Assembly: GCA_037481695.1 (NCBI GenBank)
Contig: JBBFLE010000005.1
Location: 186,001-250,000, forward strand
Length of the DNA: 64,000 nt
Source of the DNA: a bacterium
GTDB taxonomy: Bacteria > Desulfobacterota > Desulfocorpusculales > Desulfocorpusculum
Reading direction: 5' to 3'
Position 1 is the first letter of the stretch. Each line of letters opens with the position of its first letter. Below the pieces are notes generated by a model. It saw only the letters and a program-made list of their open reading frames with translations. It was not told the DNA's origin and made no database searches. Shown here piece after piece: positions 9,752 to 22,091 of the stretch. A program made the translations under genes and the position numbers.

Positions 9752-10924
9752 GTGGCTATGGACTGGTCGATGGCAATTCTGGCTGACCTGCGATGGCAGG
9801 ATGTCCTGGATATACTTTTCCTGAGCTGGGTGGCCTACTGCATATACACCTGGTTCTGGGGTACCAAGGCTTTGAAAGCCCTGGTGGGGCTCCTGGGGGT
9901 GGGAGTCATCTTCGGAGTAGCCCGGCTGTGGGGCCTTTTCTTGACCAGCTGGGTCTTTCAGGTCCTTTGGCAGGTGGCTGTCTTGCTGGTGATAATCCTT
10001 TTCCAGCCAGAGCTCAGACAGATCCTGGAGAGGGTCAACCCCTTCCGATGGTTGAAACCAAGGGGTAGATCAGACACCGGGGATTGGGTCCAGGCAGTTG
10101 TGGATGCGGTTTTTTCTCTTGCCAGATCCAGGGTGGGGGCCCTCTTGATCCTGGAGAGGACTGAGAGGATCAAGGAGTGGATAGCTGGTGGGGTGCTCCT
10201 GCAGGCCCGGGTGACGGCTCCACTTCTGATGGCAATTTTTCAGAAAGAATCCCCACTGCACGATGGGGCTGCGGTGATCCACAACGGAGAGCTAAAGATG
10301 GCAGGCTGCTTTCTTCCCCTTAGCCTATCAGATGGTTTGCCGCAGCATCTGGGAACCAGGCACAGGGCAGCCCTGGGTCTTTCAGAGAGGTGCGATGCCA
10401 TGGCAGTGGCGGTCTCCGAAGAAAGGGGCACGGTTTCCTTGGCTCAGGGTGGAGAATTCAGGGAGCTTAAGGAACCTCAGGAACTCAAGGACGCATTGGA
10501 GACGTTGGGAGGAAGGCGGGATCCCACAGGCATAGGAAAGCGCACCGCTAAGGTTATCTTCAGGAGGCTTCCGGCCAAGGTGCTTTCCCTTATGATAGTG
10601 ACTTTGCTTTGGGTGGCCCTGGCAGGGAAACAGGATGTGGAGATAAGGCTGTGGGTGCCGGTGGAGGTCCGTAATTTGCCAGAACGTTGGGAGATTCTGG
10701 AACCCCATGAACCCAAGGTGCAGGTTCAGTTACGGGGCATGAGAAAAGATGTGATGACCCTGGACGACTCCAGTGTGTTTGCCGAGCTGGATCTGAGTCT
10801 TGCCCGTTTGGGCCGCAGAACCTTCCGCCTGGGCCCCAAGGAGGTGGTGCTTCCCCACGAGAGGGTGCAGGTTGTTAGAGTGGAGCCCTCGGAAATAAAG
10901 TTCCGATTCCAGGAGAGGAGTTGA
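9752..10924 (+). CDS. cdaA: diadenylate cyclase CdaA fused to a CdaR/YbbR domain
   Basis: Makes cyclic di-AMP from two ATP. Of 390 residues, the first about 90 hold three transmembrane helices, as in CdaA. The DAC domain (about 110-255) carries the catalytic DGA at 171-173 (in ESPLHDGAAVI) and the GTRHRAA motif at 201-207. Unlike ordinary CdaA (about 270 residues), it continues with a fourth transmembrane helix (about 277-291, VLSLMIVTLLWVALAG) and a roughly 95-residue YbbR-like domain. This is the layout of CdaR, the regulator that is usually a separate gene next to cdaA. The predicted topology puts the YbbR part outside the membrane. The start is GTG or the ATG two codons on. It overlaps or abuts the DHH phosphoesterase gene. 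Confidence 0.9.
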   Translation: MAMDWSMAILADLRWQDVLDILFLSWVAYCIYTWFWGTKALKALVGLLGVGVIFGVARLWGLFLTSWVFQVLWQVAVLLVIILFQPELRQILERVNPFRWLKPRGRSDTGDWVQAVVDAVFSLARSRVGALLILERTERIKEWIAGGVLLQARVTAPLLMAIFQKESPLHDGAAVIHNGELKMAGCFLPLSLSDGLPQHLGTRHRAALGLSERCDAMAVAVSEERGTVSLAQGGEFRELKEPQELKDALETLGGRRDPTGIGKRTAKVIFRRLPAKVLSLMIVTLLWVALAGKQDVEIRLWVPVEVRNLPERWEILEPHEPKVQVQLRGMRKDVMTLDDSSVFAELDLSLARLGRRTFRLGPKEVVLPHERVQVVRVEPSEIKFRFQERS

Positions 10925-10929
10925 AGGAT

Positions 10930-11946
10930 ATGGTACATTCTCCCAATTCAGGCCCCAGGCGCTCAGGTAGAACCCACAGCACCAAGGAGAATCTGAAGAG
11001 CTTCCTCGGGCTTTTCGGGCATTCGGAGAATGTCCTGGTGCTCTTGTACCCGGATCCTGATTCCATGGCAAGCGCCCTGGCGGTCAAGAGACTTCTTTGG
11101 AAACATGTTCAAAGGGTTGTGATCACTTACATAGGGGAGATCCAGCGCCTGGAGAATCAGGCCATGATGGAGCTGCTCAGGATACCCCTGGTGCGCATAA
11201 GCCAGGTGGATGTGGATTATTTTCAGAAGAAGGTTCTTGTGGATTCACAGCCTCATCATTACGAGGCATTTGGGCGTTTGAGCTATGACGCCATAATCGA
11301 CCACCATCCCCTGGTGGGGGATGTGAAGGCATCCTTTGTGGACATCCGACCTGAGTACGGAGCTACGGCCACTATACTCATTGAATATTTGAGGGCCGCC
11401 GGGATAAAGCCCTCCACCAACCTGGCAACGGCTTTGCTTTACGCCATCAAGACAGATACGGCCAATTTCGAGCGGGATGCCACCGAGCAGGATGTGAAGG
11501 AATTTCGTTACGTGTTTCAGTACGCCAACATGAATCTGCTGCGAAAGATAGAGTTGTCGGAGCTCAGGCTAAGTGACCTGAGGTATTTCCGACAGGCTCT
11601 GGAACGCATGGTGGTAAACAAAAAGGGCATATTCGCCCATCTGGGGGAAGTGGAGACTCCGGATCTGTGTGTTCAGATAGCGGATTTTTTCATGAGGGTC
11701 CACGGCATGAAGTGGACATTTGTCTCTGGTCTTTATAGAGGCAAGCTGGTGGTAATAATACGCAATGATGGCTATCGCAAGGATGCAGGAAGACTTGCCA
11801 GGAGGGCCTTCGGAGCCTTTGGCTCTGCTGGCGGTCACCGAGGAGCGGCCAGGGCGGAGGTGCCACTGGAAGCATTGAGGGAGATGGGTATGGAAACATC
11901 GGATTCCAATGTGCAGAAATTCGTGCGCGATCGGCTGGAGTTCTGA
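10930..11946 (+). CDS. DHH/DHHA1-family phosphoesterase, candidate c-di-AMP or pApA hydrolase
   Basis: 338 residues with the two-domain DHH-DHHA1 fold. Visible motifs are PDPDSMASAL at 41-50, the D105 region KVLVDSQPHH, the DHH signature IIDHHPL at 124-126, D176 in IKTDTANF, and the DHHA1 glycine motif GSAGGHRGAAR near the C-terminus. Relatives (NrnA, GdpP, the DhhP class) degrade nanoRNA, pAp or c-di-AMP. Placement directly after the diadenylate cyclase suggests turnover of c-di-AMP or its product pApA. The first motif normally carries a histidine three residues before the first proline (HxxPDxD); here that position is Leu, so metal site 1 may be altered. The ATG at 10930 has a good ribosome site (AGGAGAGGAG); a TTG at 10921 overlapping the previous stop is the alternative. 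Confidence 0.8.
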   Translation: MVHSPNSGPRRSGRTHSTKENLKSFLGLFGHSENVLVLLYPDPDSMASALAVKRLLWKHVQRVVITYIGEIQRLENQAMMELLRIPLVRISQVDVDYFQKKVLVDSQPHHYEAFGRLSYDAIIDHHPLVGDVKASFVDIRPEYGATATILIEYLRAAGIKPSTNLATALLYAIKTDTANFERDATEQDVKEFRYVFQYANMNLLRKIELSELRLSDLRYFRQALERMVVNKKGIFAHLGEVETPDLCVQIADFFMRVHGMKWTFVSGLYRGKLVVIIRNDGYRKDAGRLARRAFGAFGSAGGHRGAARAEVPLEALREMGMETSDSNVQKFVRDRLEF

Positions 11947-14756: not shown

Positions 14757-16730
14757 ATGGCGCAAATGGTAAAAGACAAGGGTCCAAAGCCGGCCCCCCC
14801 CAACTGGATTCAGGATTTTCTTCCTGGTCAGGGCTCGGGTAGAAAAAAAATACCTCCCAAGACACACTTCAGCCTTTGGTACTTTCTGATCGTGATATCG
14901 GTCTTGATACTGTTTCAAAATCTTTACCTGGCCGGGCAGACCCAGACCATTCCATACAGCCAGTTCAAGTCTTTGGTTACTCAGGGGAAGGTGGATCAGG
15001 TGATCATAGAACCCGATGTGATCACGGGTACGCTTAAGCCCGAGGGGGCTTCGGCCAGGGGGTCCAGGTTCCGTACCTTCAGGGTGGAGGACAAGGCTCT
15101 TGTGGAAACTCTGGAACAAGGGGGGGTTATCTACTCAGGGAGTTACGAGAACAAGTTTCTCAGCGGCCTTTTGTCCTGGGTAGTGCCCATGGCGGTTTTC
15201 ATGCTCATCTGGTTCTACCTCATCAGGAAGATGGGAGGGGGAGCAGGAGTCATGTCCTTCGGCAAGAGCAGGGCCAGGATCTATGCCGAGGATGAGGTAA
15301 AGGTGACATTTCAGGATGTGGCTGGCATAGACGAGGCCAAGGAGGAACTGGAAGAGGTGGTGGAGTTCCTCAGAAACCCTGAGAAATACAGGCAGCTCGG
15401 AGGGCGGATTCCCAAAGGGGTCTTGCTGGTGGGGCCCCCTGGCACCGGCAAGACCCTTCTAGCCAGGGCCGTGGCAGGAGAGGCCAAGGTGCCCTTTTTC
15501 AGTATGAGCGGCTCGGAATTTGTGGAGATGTTTGTGGGGGTGGGAGCGGCCAGGGTCAGGGACATGTTCCGCCAGGCTCAGGAGCATGCCCCTTGCATAG
15601 TTTTTATAGATGAGCTGGATGCCCTTGGAAAGGCAAGGGGTTTGAGTCCATTAGGGGGGCATGACGAGAGGGAACAGACCCTCAACCAGCTTCTGGTGGA
15701 AATGGATGGATTTGATCCGGCCAAGGGGGTCATCATCATGGCCGCCACCAACAGACCCGAGATCTTGGACCCTGCTTTGCTCAGGCCGGGCAGATTCGAC
15801 AGGCAGGTGCTCATAGACCGTCCTGACATAAAGGGTCGGGAGGCTATTTTGAAGGTACACGTCTCCGGAGTGAAACTGGCCAAGAACGTGAATCTGCAGG
15901 AAGTGGCTGCCAGGACTCCCGGATTCGTGGGTGCGGATCTGGCCAACCTGGTCAATGAGGCTGCTCTCAGGGCGGCCCGCAGAGGCAAGAAGGCAGTGGA
16001 CATGCAGGACTTTGACGAGGCCATAGATCGGATAATCGGAGGTCTGGAAAAGAAAAACAGGGTCATGAACGCCAGGGAAAAACAGATAGTGGCTTACCAT
16101 GAAACAGGCCATGCACTGGTGGCCGAGGCAGTTCCCAATGCGGATCCTGTCAGAAAAATATCAATAATCCCAAGGGGCATAGCAGCCCTGGGTTACACCC
16201 AGCAGCTTCCTACAGAGGACAGATATCTCATGACTCGTTCTGAGCTGGAGGACCGTATTGCCGTGTTGCTGGGGGGCAGGGTGGCAGAGGAAATAACCTT
16301 TCAAGACGTCTCCACAGGCGCCCAAAACGACCTGCAAAGAGCCACTGATCTGGCCCGTTCCATGATAATGGAATACGGTATGAGCGAAAGGTTGGGACTG
16401 GTGACCTTCCAGAAGGAGCGCAGGTCCATGTTTCTGGAAAGCCCTGCTATCCCTCGGGACTACAGCGAGGAGAGGGCCCGCATGATAGACGAGGAGGTGG
16501 AGGGGATCCTGAGCCGGGCCCACGAGAGGGTCAAAGGGATATTGGAAGAAAGACGGGAGCTGCTGGATAAGGTGGCCAAGACCTTGCTGGAAAAGGAGGT
16601 GATGGAGGGAAAGGAATTACGCTCCATGATCCAGGAGGCCGGCTTCGAGGTCAGAGAAGAACCCCTGGAAAAGGAGAGATCCAGGCTCAAGAAAAAGCAG
16701 GATAGCAAGACACCATCAGCCACCGAGTGA
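14757..16730 (+). CDS. ftsH: ATP-dependent zinc metalloprotease FtsH
   Basis: Membrane-anchored AAA+ protease that degrades misfolded membrane proteins and regulatory targets. It has 657 residues with two transmembrane helices (about 40-58 and 137-156) around a periplasmic loop. The AAA domain has Walker A GPPGTGKT (226-233), Walker [10 protein letters not shown], the pore loop [14 protein letters not shown] and the second region of homology [19 protein letters not shown]. The protease site HETGH is at about 448-452. The ribosome site AAGGAGGG precedes the ATG. It converges with uvrA, with only 27 bases between the two stops and no terminator seen. Confidence 0.98.
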
Positions 16731-16757: not shown

Positions 16758-19700
16758 CTATATTCTTTCCAGGTGCTTCTTGAGCCATCGGGCCGTGTGA
16801 GAAGTATCCTGATGTTCAAGGATCTCCCAGGGCGAGCCCTGGGCCACTATGCGGCCTCCATCATCTCCGGCTTCTGGGCCCAGGTCTATGATGTGGTCAG
16901 CCGAGGCAATAACGTCCAACTGGTGTTCCACAACAACCACTGTATCTCCCCTGTCCACAAGGCTTTGAAGGGTGCTTATGAGCCTTTGCACATCGGTTGT
17001 GTGAAGACCTGTGGTGGGCTCGTCGAGTACGTAAAGGTTTCTGCCGTTACTGGGCCTGGAGAGTTCCTGGGCCAGCTTCACCCTCTGGGCTTCTCCGCCT
17101 GAGAGGGTGGGGCTTGGCTGCCCCAGGGTCAAATAACCCAGCCCCAGCTCCTGGAGCAGCCTAAGAGGTCTTCGGATCTGAGGCACTGCAGAGAAAAACT
17201 CCAGGGCTTCTTCGATGCTCATCTGGAGCACCTCCCCGATGGATCTGCCCTTGTAGGTGACAGAGAGGGTTTCCCTGTTGAAACGGGCTCCCTCACAAGC
17301 CTCGCACAAGACGTAAACATCTGGCAGAAAGCTCATCTCCTTGCGCAGGATCCCCTGTCCTTCGCAAACAGGACACCTGCCTGGACTCAGGTTGAAGGAG
17401 AACCTGCCTGAGTTGTATCCCTTGGCCCTGGCTTCTGGTAGTGCGGCATAGAGCCTGCGGATCTGATCCCAGACCTTCACATAGGTGGCTGGGGTTGATC
17501 TGGGAGTTCGGCCTATGGGGGAATGGTCCACCTCCAAGACCCTTTCCAACATCTCCCAACCTTCTATGGCATCGCAGATTCCTGCTTCATTGTCCTGGGG
17601 GACCCCGTTCTTGGACAGGAGCTTCTTGAGTCCGTTGTAGAGCACGTCCTGGACCAGTGAACTCTTCCCCGAGCCTGAAACCCCCGTCACACAGGTGAGG
17701 GTGCCCAGGGGTATTTTCACATCCAATCCTTTCAGATTGTGCTGACGGGCATTGCGGATGAGCAGGTATTGCCCGTTTCTGGCTTCTCTGGCCTTACATG
17801 GGATGCCTTTGGCCCTTCTTTCCTCCAAGGCCCTAACCGTGAGGGATATTTCCTTGTCTTTCAACTGTTCCCAGGTGCCCTGGGCCAATATCTCTCCACC
17901 ATACCTGCCTGCTCCAGGGCCCAGATCCACTATCCAGTCCGCTTCCCGGATGGTGTCCTCATCGTGTTCCACCAATATGACGGTGTTGCCCCGGTCTCGA
18001 AGTTGCCTCAAACTCTCGGCCAGAAGCGCATGGTCTCTGGGGTGGAGCCCTATGGTGGGTTCATCCAGCACATAGCACACCCCCCTTAGGTTTGAGCCCA
18101 ACTGGGCCGCCAGCCTGATCCTCTGCGCCTCGCCTCCGGAGAGGGTCTCAGCCGAGCGGTCCAGCCTCAAGTATCCCACACCCAGGCGAAGCAGAGTCTC
18201 AAGCCTGGTGCTTATCTCCCTGACCAGAGGATCAGCCACCTGTTGCGCGGCTTCCCTGAAGCGTACCTCCTTCCAAAAACGGTAAGCCTCAAGGATGCTC
18301 ATGGAGACCATCTCCCCTATGCTCAGACCAAGCACCTTCACAGCCCTGGCGCTGGTGGTGAGGCGCTCTCCACCACATTGTGGACATATGCGCTTTCCCA
18401 GCTCCTCCAAGACCCCCAGGCCATCGCAGCTCGGACATGCCCCCATGGGGCTATTGAAAGAGAAGTGGCGGGGGTCCAACTCACCGAACCCCTTGAGGCA
18501 CCTGGGGCACTGGCGCCGGTTGCTAAATGTCTCCTGAAGACCCCCCTGGGGAAGCACCATGATGGTTCCTTCCCCATAGCCCATGGCGGTCTCCACCAAG
18601 TTCTGAAGCCCCGAGAGGTCTCTTGGATCTACCAGCAGATTCTGGGCCACCACCCATTCTATCCAGTGTTCCTTGTAACGATCCAACTGGGGTACTGATG
18701 GGCCAGGGTAGATCCTCCCATCCACCCTAACCGCGGGAAGCCCCAACCTGTAGGCCTGAAGAATCGTGGATTTGTGAGTGCCTTTCCTGCCCACTATACG
18801 TGGAGCCAAGAGGCATATCTGCTTGCCCTTGAACCTTTGCAACATGGCTTCCATAACCGAGGCCAGCCTTCCGGTGGAAATGGGAATGTTGCAGGAGGGA
18901 CAGTATTGCACCCCCAGCCTGGCAAAAAGGAGCCTCATGAAGTGATAGATCTCGGTTAGGGTGGCCACGGTGGATCTTCGGCCTGCTTTGGCAGTTCTTT
19001 GCTCTATGGCCACCGTGGGGGGAATCCCGGCCACCAGGTCCACGTCAGGACGATCCATGACCTTGAGATATTGGCGCACATAAGCTGGAAGGCTTTCCAA
19101 ATAGCGCCTTTGGCCCTCATTGAAAAGGATGTCAAAGGCAAGAGTGGACTTGCCAGAGCCTGAGACTCCGGTTATCACCACTATCTTGTCCCTGGGAATG
19201 TCCAAGGAGATCTCCTTGAGGTTGTGCTCTCTGGCTCCCCGCACTTGGATGGCATTGTCAAGCGGCCAGGCGGGCTCCTGTTGCCAGTGGCTGAGAGGCT
19301 CCGTAACAACCGTGGTGCTAAACCGGGAGGGTCCTTCCAGAACCGCTTTGAGGTATCTGCCTGTATGGGACTGGGTGCATTGGGCTATGGCCTCCGGAGG
19401 ACCCTGGGCAACTATGTATCCACCTGCATCGCCCCCCTCAGGCCCCAGGTCTATTACGTGGTCCGCTGATTTTATTACATCCAGGTGGTGCTCCACGACC
19501 ACCACCGTGTGGCCCATTTCCACAAGTTCCTGTAAGACCTCCAGGAGTTTTTGCACATCCTGGAGGTGGAGGCCGGTTGTGGGTTCATCCAGAAGAAAAA
19601 GAGTGCTGGGCTGCCAGGGTGTAAGAAATCTGGCCAGGCGAAGCCTCTGGGCCTCACCTCCCGAAAGGGTGCTCAGAGGCTGGCCCAGGGTGAGGTAACC

Positions 19701-22091
19701 TAAACCCATCTTGCGTAAGGGCTCCAAGGCGTTTACCACTTGTTTCTCTTTCCAAAACAGCTCGCAGGCTTCCTCCACTGTGCTCTCCAGCACGTCGGCT
19801 ATGGACTTTCCGTTCCAAAGAACATCCAGTACAGGTCCCAGGAACCTTCGGCCCTGGCAGTCGGGACACTTAAGCAAAACATCCGATAAGAACTGCATCT
19901 CCACCCTTTGAAATCCCTCGCCTTTGCAGCTCTCACAACGCCCCCCAGGCACATTGAAAGAGAACATCCCTGGACCCCAGCCTCTGGTGCGGGCCAGAGG
20001 TACCATAGCAAAACACTTTCTTATGTGCTCCCACGCCCGACTGTAAGTAGCAGGATTGGCCCTTGTGGTGCGGCCCAAACCGCTTTGGTCTACCAACTCA
20101 ACCCTGTCTATCCATTGAGCTCCATCCAGGCCCCCATGGCGTCCAGGTCTCTCCCCTGGAATGTTCTTGGCCCTTAGCAGAGCCCTGTAAAGTACGTCCA
20201 AGAGAAGGGTGCTTTTTCCTGAGCCCGAAGGGCCGGTGATGCATACCAAAGCCTGCAAGGGAATCTTCACGTCTATTGCCTTGAGATTGTTCTCCGTAAC
20301 TTCCCTCAGGAGTAGGTACCTTTCTGGGGGAGGATTTCTTCTCCTGGATGGAACCGGTATGCTTCTTCTTCCAGTGAGATAAAAGGCCGTAGGGGAATCC
20401 TCTGCCTGACCCAGAGCAGAAGGGGGGCCGCAATAGAGCAGTCTTCCGCCTCTGGCCCCAGCCCCAGGGCCCAGGTCCAGGACCAGATCCGCACTGTTTA
20501 TCAAGGAGGGATCGTGTTCTACCACCACAGCGGTGTTCCCCTGTTGCACTAGACGTCTGATGGCCTTGGCAAGGCGTTCTGTGTCCCTGGGGTGAAGCCC
20601 TATGCTGGGCTCGTCCAGTACAAAGAGGGTGTTGACCAGTCTGGAGCCCAGGGCCCTTGTAAGAAGAACCCTTTCCACCTCCCCCCCAGAGAGGCTCCGG
20701 GAGGACCTGTCCAGGGTCAGGTAGCCCAGACCTACTGCCTGAAGGTAACCCAGGCGGGCTTTGATCTCTGAGATCAACATCTGGGAAACCGCATGAAGGC
20801 TTGTGTTGTTCTCCATTTCTCTGAAGAATTCAATGGCCGCATCCACGGACATGGAGCAGATCTGTGGGAGGGTCTTGCCAAGGATTCGCCATTGGAGGGC
20901 CTCTGGCCTCAACCTAGCCCCATTACAGTCCGGACATGGCACATAAGCTCTGAAACGGGAGAGAAAGACCCTCACATGCATGCGGTAGCTCTTTTCTTCC
21001 AGCCACTTGAAAAAGCCTCTGACTCCGTAGTAACCATCAGTTCCCTCCATGATGGCCTTACGAGCCTGTTCTGGTAACTTTTTCCATGGCACATCCAGCG
21101 GAATCTTATGTGCGCGGCAGAATGCAAGCAGATCCTGGAACTCGTGGCGGGCAGCCGGCATGGAAAAAGGCTTTATGGCACCCTGCTTTATGGTTAGCCA
21201 GGGTTGCGGTACCACTAGTTCCGGATCTATGTCAATGACCCTTCCAAAACCCTTACATGTGGGGCACGCTCCCACCGGGCTGTTGAAAGAGAAGAGATTG
21301 GGCACTGGCTCTTTGACCTCAGAGGAGCAGGTAGAACATTTCCACTGGTTGCTGAGGCGAAGCATTCTGCGGTCTGGCAGAAAGGCTGCTGCCCAACCTT
21401 TACCGTAACGAAAGGCTGTCTCCAAAGAATCTATGAACCTGCCCCTGTCTGAGGAGGAGGCTGGGAAACGGTCCACCACCACATGGATTTCGGACTCATG
21501 GAAGGTGGGCTCCCATTGCTCTACTGGCAGGATCTCTCCATTGCTGAAAACCCTCAGAAAACCCATGCGAAGGAGTCCCATCCTCAGTCCCTGAGGATCC
21601 CGTTCCATTACCTGCAGTGGAAACATGATCAGCCAAGAACCTTCATGGGGCCATGTCTTGGACTCCTCCCAAAGGCTATCCGGGCTGTTCCTACGGATCT
21701 CGACCCCGCAATGGAAGCATATGGGCGAAGCCATCCTGGCAAAGAGGAGCTTGAGAAAGTCGGTCAGTTCAGTCATGGTGCCCACCGTTGAGCGGGAAGT
21801 GCGCACAGGATGGCTTCCCTCTATGGCCAGGGCAGGAGGGATGCCTGTGACCTCGTCCACAAGAGGCCTGTCCATTCTTTCCAGGAATTGGCGGGCATAG
21901 GGCGAGAAGGTCTCCACATATCTTCTCTGGCCTTCTGCATAGAGAACATCCATGGCTAGGGTTGATTTCCCAGAGCCCGATACGCCTGTAACCGTGATCC
22001 ATCTGCCTGTGGGAATCTTCAGATCAAGTCCCTTGAGATTGTGCTGGCGAACATTGACCAGCCTTATGACTTGGGTGTGCTCAGAGTCCAC
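16758..22091 (-). CDS. uvrA: double-length UvrA: two tandem excinuclease A copies in one chain
   Basis: 1777 residues, nearly twice the usual 940. UvrA dimers find DNA lesions and load UvrB. Four ABC nucleotide-binding sites are visible, with Walker A GxSGSGKST/S motifs near residues 36, 622, 975 and 1474 and four LSGGE signatures. Zinc-module cysteines occur in both halves ([35 protein letters not shown]). Copy 1 (about 1-920) keeps the insertion domain between [10 protein letters not shown] and CPDCNGARL. In copy 2 (about 950-1777) the equivalent [10 protein letters not shown] is followed almost directly by [10 protein letters not shown], so that domain is missing and the two Walker A sites are only about 500 residues apart. 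The chain could act as an intramolecular dimer. The start is GTG after GGAGGAGAACAG. No second uvrA is in the window. Confidence 0.93.

Follow-up and report, generated by a model that had tools for sequence, protein, structure and literature searches.

A predicted CdaA-type diadenylate cyclase fused to a single YbbR domain is an additional cyclase gene in a Desulfobacterota genome and is conserved among its relatives

Introduction

Why would a bacterium carry a diadenylate cyclase joined in one chain to part of a CdaR-type regulator, and does such a protein take the place of the usual cyclase or stand beside it? The question is raised by one gene in the window, by which we mean the whole stretch of 64,000 nucleotides of Desulfobacterota DNA analysed here. 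CdaR has been reported to bind CdaA via the membrane region (PMC8573169), and a CdaA-CdaR-GlmM complex has been described, with the mode of action of CdaR on CdaA stated to be unclear (PMC8573169 and PMC6368335, available excerpts). The CdaR proteins of lactic acid bacteria have three or four YbbR domains, and in some streptococci CdaA and CdaR are fused (A5LQF8, E1M7C3 and V8IIN0, termed “large fusion proteins”), according to the part of PMC10243994 available to us. On the strength of these streptococcal cases, the CdaA-CdaR fusion is a kind already known. The available excerpts of PMC12974146, PMC7288161 and PMC8316131 added nothing on such fusions. A literature search (titles and abstract openings) returned no description of the fusion in Desulfobacterota; we also found no dedicated c-di-AMP study of this bacterial group and no publication joining c-di-AMP, diadenylate cyclase and glycogen phosphorylase.

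Results and Discussion

The features of the fusion gene and of the gene that follows it are collected in Table 1. The fusion starts with GTG, with an ATG two codons downstream. Pfam recognised CdaA_N at residues 12-87 (26.9 bits, cut-off 23.8) and DAC with 128.2 bits (E 1.5e-37, cut-off 27), and against the NCBIfam CdaA model TIGR00159 the protein scored 188.7 bits, 0.1 bit short of the cut-off of 188.8. The full-length AlphaFold model (pLDDT 82) shows two domains and four membrane helices, at residues 15-37, 40-60, 63-83 and 273-291, with a beta domain at 295-388; its pTM of 0.49 makes the packing of the domains unreliable. The last of these helices agrees with the claim of the sequence-only reading that a fourth transmembrane helix follows the DAC domain. 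In a Foldseek search with this model, the best PDB matches were CdaA, DacA and related cyclase domains, which the DAC part resembles.

Table 1. Position of the fusion gene, its parts and the adjoining DHH gene in the window
Feature	Position	Strand	Description or evidence
CdaA-YbbR fusion gene	9752..10924	+	one uninterrupted ORF, 390 aa
N-terminal membrane helices (three), CdaA_N domain	9794..10000	+	AlphaFold, Pfam
DAC (diadenylate cyclase) domain, residues 118-235	10103..10456	+	Pfam, Foldseek
DGA motif	10262-10270	+	within DAC domain
RHR motif	10358-10366	+	within DAC domain
Transmembrane helix 4 (residues 273-291), CdaR anchor homologue	10568..10624	+	AlphaFold, hydropathy, hhalign
One YbbR domain (by Pfam 302-383; beta domain of the model 295-388)	10634..10921	+	Pfam, hhalign, PDB profile, Foldseek
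DHH-family phosphoesterase-like gene, 341 aa, possible partner	10921..11946	+	Pfam, closest solved structure

The motifs DGA and RHR, which we take to be the catalytic motifs of diadenylate cyclases, are well preserved among the aligned fusions: the first is kept in 57 of 57 and the second is intact in 54 of 57, so that the protein is likely to be active as a diadenylate cyclase. The net charge before helix 4 is positive in 49 of the 57. Together with the four modelled helices, this fits a cytoplasmic location of the chain before helix 4 and a predicted YbbR domain outside the cytoplasm. A frameshift, a chimera or an assembly artefact as the origin of the single chain was ruled out, the joint being common to 41 distinct short loci (defined below) in 28 genera.

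The identity of the tail required more care. In the whole chain YbbR scored 19.4 bits, under the Pfam cut-off of 22.3, and it rose to 23.0 bits for the C-terminal 122 residues by themselves (23 bits in the genome scan as well); only 23 of the 57 fusions match Pfam YbbR at E 0.01. Because this score is borderline, three further tests were made, based on a profile of the 41 short-fusion C-termini, window included, and on a structural model. Aligned by hhalign with three canonical CdaR proteins of the same order, the profile gave a probability of 98.3% (E 1.9e-14) over CdaR residues 7-127, that is, the anchor and the first domain; run as an HMM against the genome's own CdaR it scored 65 bits over residues 7-124. 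Among PDB sequences it matched the YbbR chains 2kpu, 2l3u and 3lyw (E 1.6-2.4e-4), and beyond these three nothing below E 0.6. Modelled by AlphaFold on their own, the C-terminal 123 residues (pLDDT 89.3) show a helix at residues 6-24 of the model, and the six best Foldseek matches of that model are all YbbR structures, Listeria lmo2119 among them.

Both the alignment and the modelled helix place the anchor directly before the first YbbR domain, as in CdaR. The tail has one YbbR domain only and the genome's own CdaR has three YbbR matches. By its sequence, then, the tail is equivalent to the CdaR helix plus the first YbbR domain and not to the whole regulator. The proposal made from the sequence alone, that cyclase and CdaR/YbbR-type domain are covalently joined with one YbbR per cyclase, is borne out by the Pfam, profile and fold matches, and the outcome that would have spoken against it, a C-terminus that profile searches fail to match to YbbR, was not obtained.

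Besides the fusion, the window's genome (G000; 100% complete, 4.1 Mb in 52 contigs) contains a second DAC gene. The latter lies in an ftsH-folP-cdaA-cdaR-glmM-pdxJ-nnr locus, the gene names being ones that we assigned by recognition of the translations, and there CdaR is a separate protein. The fusion locus is not of the cdaA-cdaR-glmM type. It reads rarA (on the minus strand), fusion, DHH, groES, groEL, a dksA/traR-type zinc-finger gene and ftsH, and the canonical locus lies elsewhere in the genome. The presence of canonical cdaA-cdaR-glmM in the same genome makes the fusion an additional cyclase gene rather than a replacement, and it would add a c-di-AMP input beside the usual one. The idea that it might be the genome's only cyclase is ruled out by the second DAC gene. 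Of the cyclase-regulator fusion put forward in the sequence-only reading, the covalent link therefore stands; the fusion is no stand-in for a separate CdaR, which this genome also has. As a further observation, ftsH occurs twice in this genome, near the fusion (14757-16730) and again beside canonical folP-cdaA-cdaR-glmM (L007, 8666-10552). The minus strand of the window at 16758-22091 holds an ORF of 1777 aa.

Both cyclase forms are also present in two further genomes of the same order. Among the 22 genomes examined for DAC, the fusion is the only cyclase in five. Twelve of the genomes examined have the short fusion: three also have a canonical CdaA, three a long fusion, three nothing more than partial or short additional DAC matches, and three no other DAC. 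As to how the fusion gene is controlled, no Rfam match was found in the window between 8000 and 17000 and no c-di-AMP riboswitch in the window's genome, and riboswitch control of the fusion was rejected on these results. Promoter and terminator scans gave no usable signal.

Taken together, we consider it probable that the product of the gene is a second diadenylate cyclase, bound to the membrane, in which a CdaR-type helix and YbbR domain form part of the same chain and which would provide a separate c-di-AMP input. The three N-terminal helices would anchor a cytoplasmic DAC domain that would join two ATP into c-di-AMP, and helix 4, of the CdaR anchor type, would return the chain across the membrane to the external YbbR domain. 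Helix 4 may pack against helices 1-3 in the way that CdaR packs on CdaA; the YbbR domain may read an envelope or turgor cue and thereby tune the cyclase; and the fusion may in this way supply c-di-AMP apart from the GlmM-coupled input.

The tail could also be a mere membrane anchor or dimer clamp that senses nothing, the fusion being then a constitutive spare cyclase. In favor of this reading, just one of the usual YbbR domains is retained, and the role of YbbR/CdaR is itself disputed, both activator and repressor functions having been reported and none being conclusive in Staphylococcus aureus (PMC8573169 and PMC6368335, available excerpts). However, mean column identity of the tail across the 41 short loci is 51%, with G62, R64 and D66 and the juxtamembrane residues A24, G25 and Q27 invariant (tail numbering), and this conservation exceeds the needs of a bare anchor. 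We hold a purely structural tail to be unlikely.

A survey across Desulfobacterota, as had been suggested from the sequence alone, found the fusion to be common. The fusion protein has a match somewhere in 353 of 395 genomes. Among the matches listed, those of at least 103 of the 395 genomes extend over cyclase and YbbR parts alike, to query position 360 or further, in an uninterrupted frame, and those of at least 29 more extend over both with an internal stop; the two counts of 103 and 29 were tallied by hand and are lower bounds. The homologue scan that used a single protein as query found two loci only.

We sorted the loci by identity and length, the labels being our own. The short form (388-427 aa, one YbbR) is represented by 41 distinct loci including that of the window, to which the others are 42-52% identical. 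Eight loci, with about 40% identity to the window protein, make up a middle form. The long form, mostly about 475-500 aa with apparently two YbbR domains, comprises 36 loci and nine added later, and includes L129 and L244 although these are only about 400 aa; two more loci were classed as other. The long two-YbbR fusions of the same phylum have the same domain order and joint as the window fusion, at 29-39% identity. They differ from it in an extra YbbR-like domain at the end, the window fusion having one, and they fall on separate tree branches.

A tree of the CdaA parts was built from 98 sequences (41 short, 8 middle, 29 of the 45 long with 16 omitted, 18 canonical and 2 other). In this quick tree, rooted by choice on the canonical group and containing two long branches, canonical and fused CdaA parts are split at an SH-aLRT of 100, and the short fusions form one group at 98. 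Of the 18 canonical loci, 16 have ftsH, folP, cdaA, cdaR and glmM; of the remaining two, L126 has no folP match and L227 is at a contig edge. The fused CdaA parts make up one side of the tree by themselves, and from this the fusion appears to predate the split of the present genera. The loci with an internal stop indicate how it may have come about. Eight of the 29 were checked (L250-L257), and in every one cdaA and cdaR share a frame within a canonical operon and are parted by a stop that falls exactly at the fusion joint; L257 has three stops. Loss of one stop codon would thus be a simple route to a fusion. Most likely, neighboring in-frame cdaA and cdaR genes were joined by such a loss before today's genera separated. 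The alternative that cdaA and cdaR of this very genome had fused recently and locally was ruled out, the canonical locus being intact and the fused parts standing apart from all 18 canonical ones.

The gene directly downstream of the fusion starts with TTG and overlaps the fusion stop by four bases, with an ATG three codons downstream. Its product matches Pfam DHH (35.1 bits, E 1.8e-8, cut-off 28.1) and more weakly DHHA1 (16.7 bits, below the cut-off of 25.9), and among solved structures the DHH/DHHA1 phosphodiesterase TmPDE comes closest (E 6e-6). With DhhP-type phosphodiesterases such as TmPDE it shares, besides these matches, the DxD, DHH and GGH motifs. It differs from them in the motif-I His, which we presume to be the expected metal-site residue of DHH enzymes: this residue is absent from the window protein and its near relatives and present in more distant ones. 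The gene may possibly encode a phosphodiesterase.

One might then think of the fusion and the overlapping DHH gene as a make-and-break pair for c-di-AMP or pApA in this genome. The overlap in the window has a counterpart in genome G058, which has the same rarA-fusion-DHH-groES-groEL order and an ATGA overlap; the closest solved structure, TmPDE, is a phosphodiesterase; no PgpH-type 7TM-HD phosphodiesterase was found in the window's genome; and DhhP-type enzymes of the stand-alone kind break down both c-di-AMP and pApA (PMC9960051, available excerpt). However, the fusion and the DHH gene are adjacent in only 2 of the 41 short loci, which rules out the DHH gene as a fixed partner of the fusion. 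Genome G020 keeps the DHH gene beside groES without the fusion, so that it may belong with groES instead, and the missing motif-I His also speaks against a working pair. A make-and-break pair in this genome is accordingly conceivable but rather doubtful. We note that the DHH protein is 82% identical in G058 and the adjoining fusions only 51%.

The neighborhoods of the short fusions in relatives point in another direction. Co-directional glgA, glgB, glgP or malQ genes lie within 700 bp, a limit picked after the loci had been seen, at 11 of the 41 short loci and at none of 73 comparison loci (45 long, 8 middle, 18 canonical and 2 other; Fisher p 4.9e-6), and alpha-glucan genes lie within 9 kb in any orientation at 11 of the 41 short loci and 7 of the 73 others (6 of the 45 long; p 0.03), both p-values being inflated by shared descent. 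The glycogen-linked short loci fall in 9 of 28 genera, and the arrangements vary in families f1, f33 and f49. With gene names from NCBIfam, the orders are malQ-fusion-glgP (L101, L183, L186, L190 and L193), glgA-fusion (L102 and L103), fusion-glgP (L099 and L184), glgA-glgB-fusion (L107) and glgP-GpgS-like-glgA-fusion (L104).

Other neighbors were observed as well. At L167, L168 and L179 the short fusion is flanked by two different GpgS-like glycosyltransferase genes, whose scores fall far short of the NCBIfam cut-offs. At L172, L173 and L175, in genera g253 and g264, it lies directly upstream of what we take, by recognition, to be mraZ-, rsmH- and ftsL-like genes of a dcw-type division and cell-wall cluster. 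At L105 and L106 it is followed by a gene for an MscS-type mechanosensitive channel and one for a CorA-type transporter.

These neighborhoods would be explained if the short fusion were a cyclase devoted to carbohydrate storage and compatible solutes, with its c-di-AMP acting on the adjoining glycogen and alpha-glucan enzymes and on GpgS-like glycosyltransferases. The co-directional neighbors, their spread over genera and their varied arrangements argue for such a role, as do the GpgS-like transferases flanking other short fusions. It has a precedent in cyanobacteria, where c-di-AMP, SbtB and GlgB have been described and c-di-AMP-dependent regulation of GlgB is known (PMC10117731, in the part available). 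However, 30 of the 41 short loci lack such a neighbor, some of them on short contigs, and the looser proximity within 9 kb is not special to the short form. In addition, the search for an alpha-glucan phosphorylase in the window's genome found none, and the window itself holds no glg gene; a GpgS-like gene with 65% identity is present in this genome, elsewhere from the fusion.

In our estimate such a storage role is improbable. In it, the fusion would act in a way loosely comparable to that of c-di-AMP and SbtB on cyanobacterial glycogen, and the window's genome would have kept the cyclase without the glycogen phosphorylase branch. Because this genome lacks an alpha-glucan phosphorylase, the glycogen link is a lead on the family and leaves the window locus unexplained; as an explanation of that locus we set it aside as unsupported.

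It remains to compare the window fusion with the known systems. With the cdaA-cdaR-glmM system (CdaA/DacA and a separate CdaR/YbbR) it shares the CdaA_N helices, DAC, DGA and RHR, and its tail corresponds by homology to the anchor plus first YbbR domain of CdaR. It differs in being one chain, in having one YbbR domain instead of several, in coexisting with the canonical set, and in its surroundings, where there is no glmM, folP or ftsH1-type locus. The streptococcal CdaA-CdaR fusions, compared by their description in the available text of PMC10243994, likewise hold cyclase and CdaR-type regulator in one chain; unlike what that description conveys of them, the window fusion keeps a single YbbR domain and is an extra copy.

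Conclusions

The single-chain CdaA-YbbR cyclase is real and conserved, and in the window's genome it is an extra copy. It belongs to a known kind, of which the one-YbbR form is a variant, and the short fusions that adjoin glycogen genes in relatives, an observation new here, give the family a suggestive context. One could go further and propose that the one-YbbR fusion represents a signalling branch of its own among Desulfobacterota-like bacteria, in which an envelope-facing sensor-cyclase chain would control adjoining glycogen, alpha-glucan and compatible-solute enzymes independently of the GlmM-coupled CdaA. We regard this as a long shot; if it were true, glycogen control by c-di-AMP would reach beyond cyanobacteria. 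Of the cyclase-regulator forms seen here, the natural one-YbbR chain is the smallest, and it would make the action of CdaR testable in one protein, and the glycogen and GpgS-like link in relatives offers a concrete hypothesis for the role that c-di-AMP may have in a large bacterial group.
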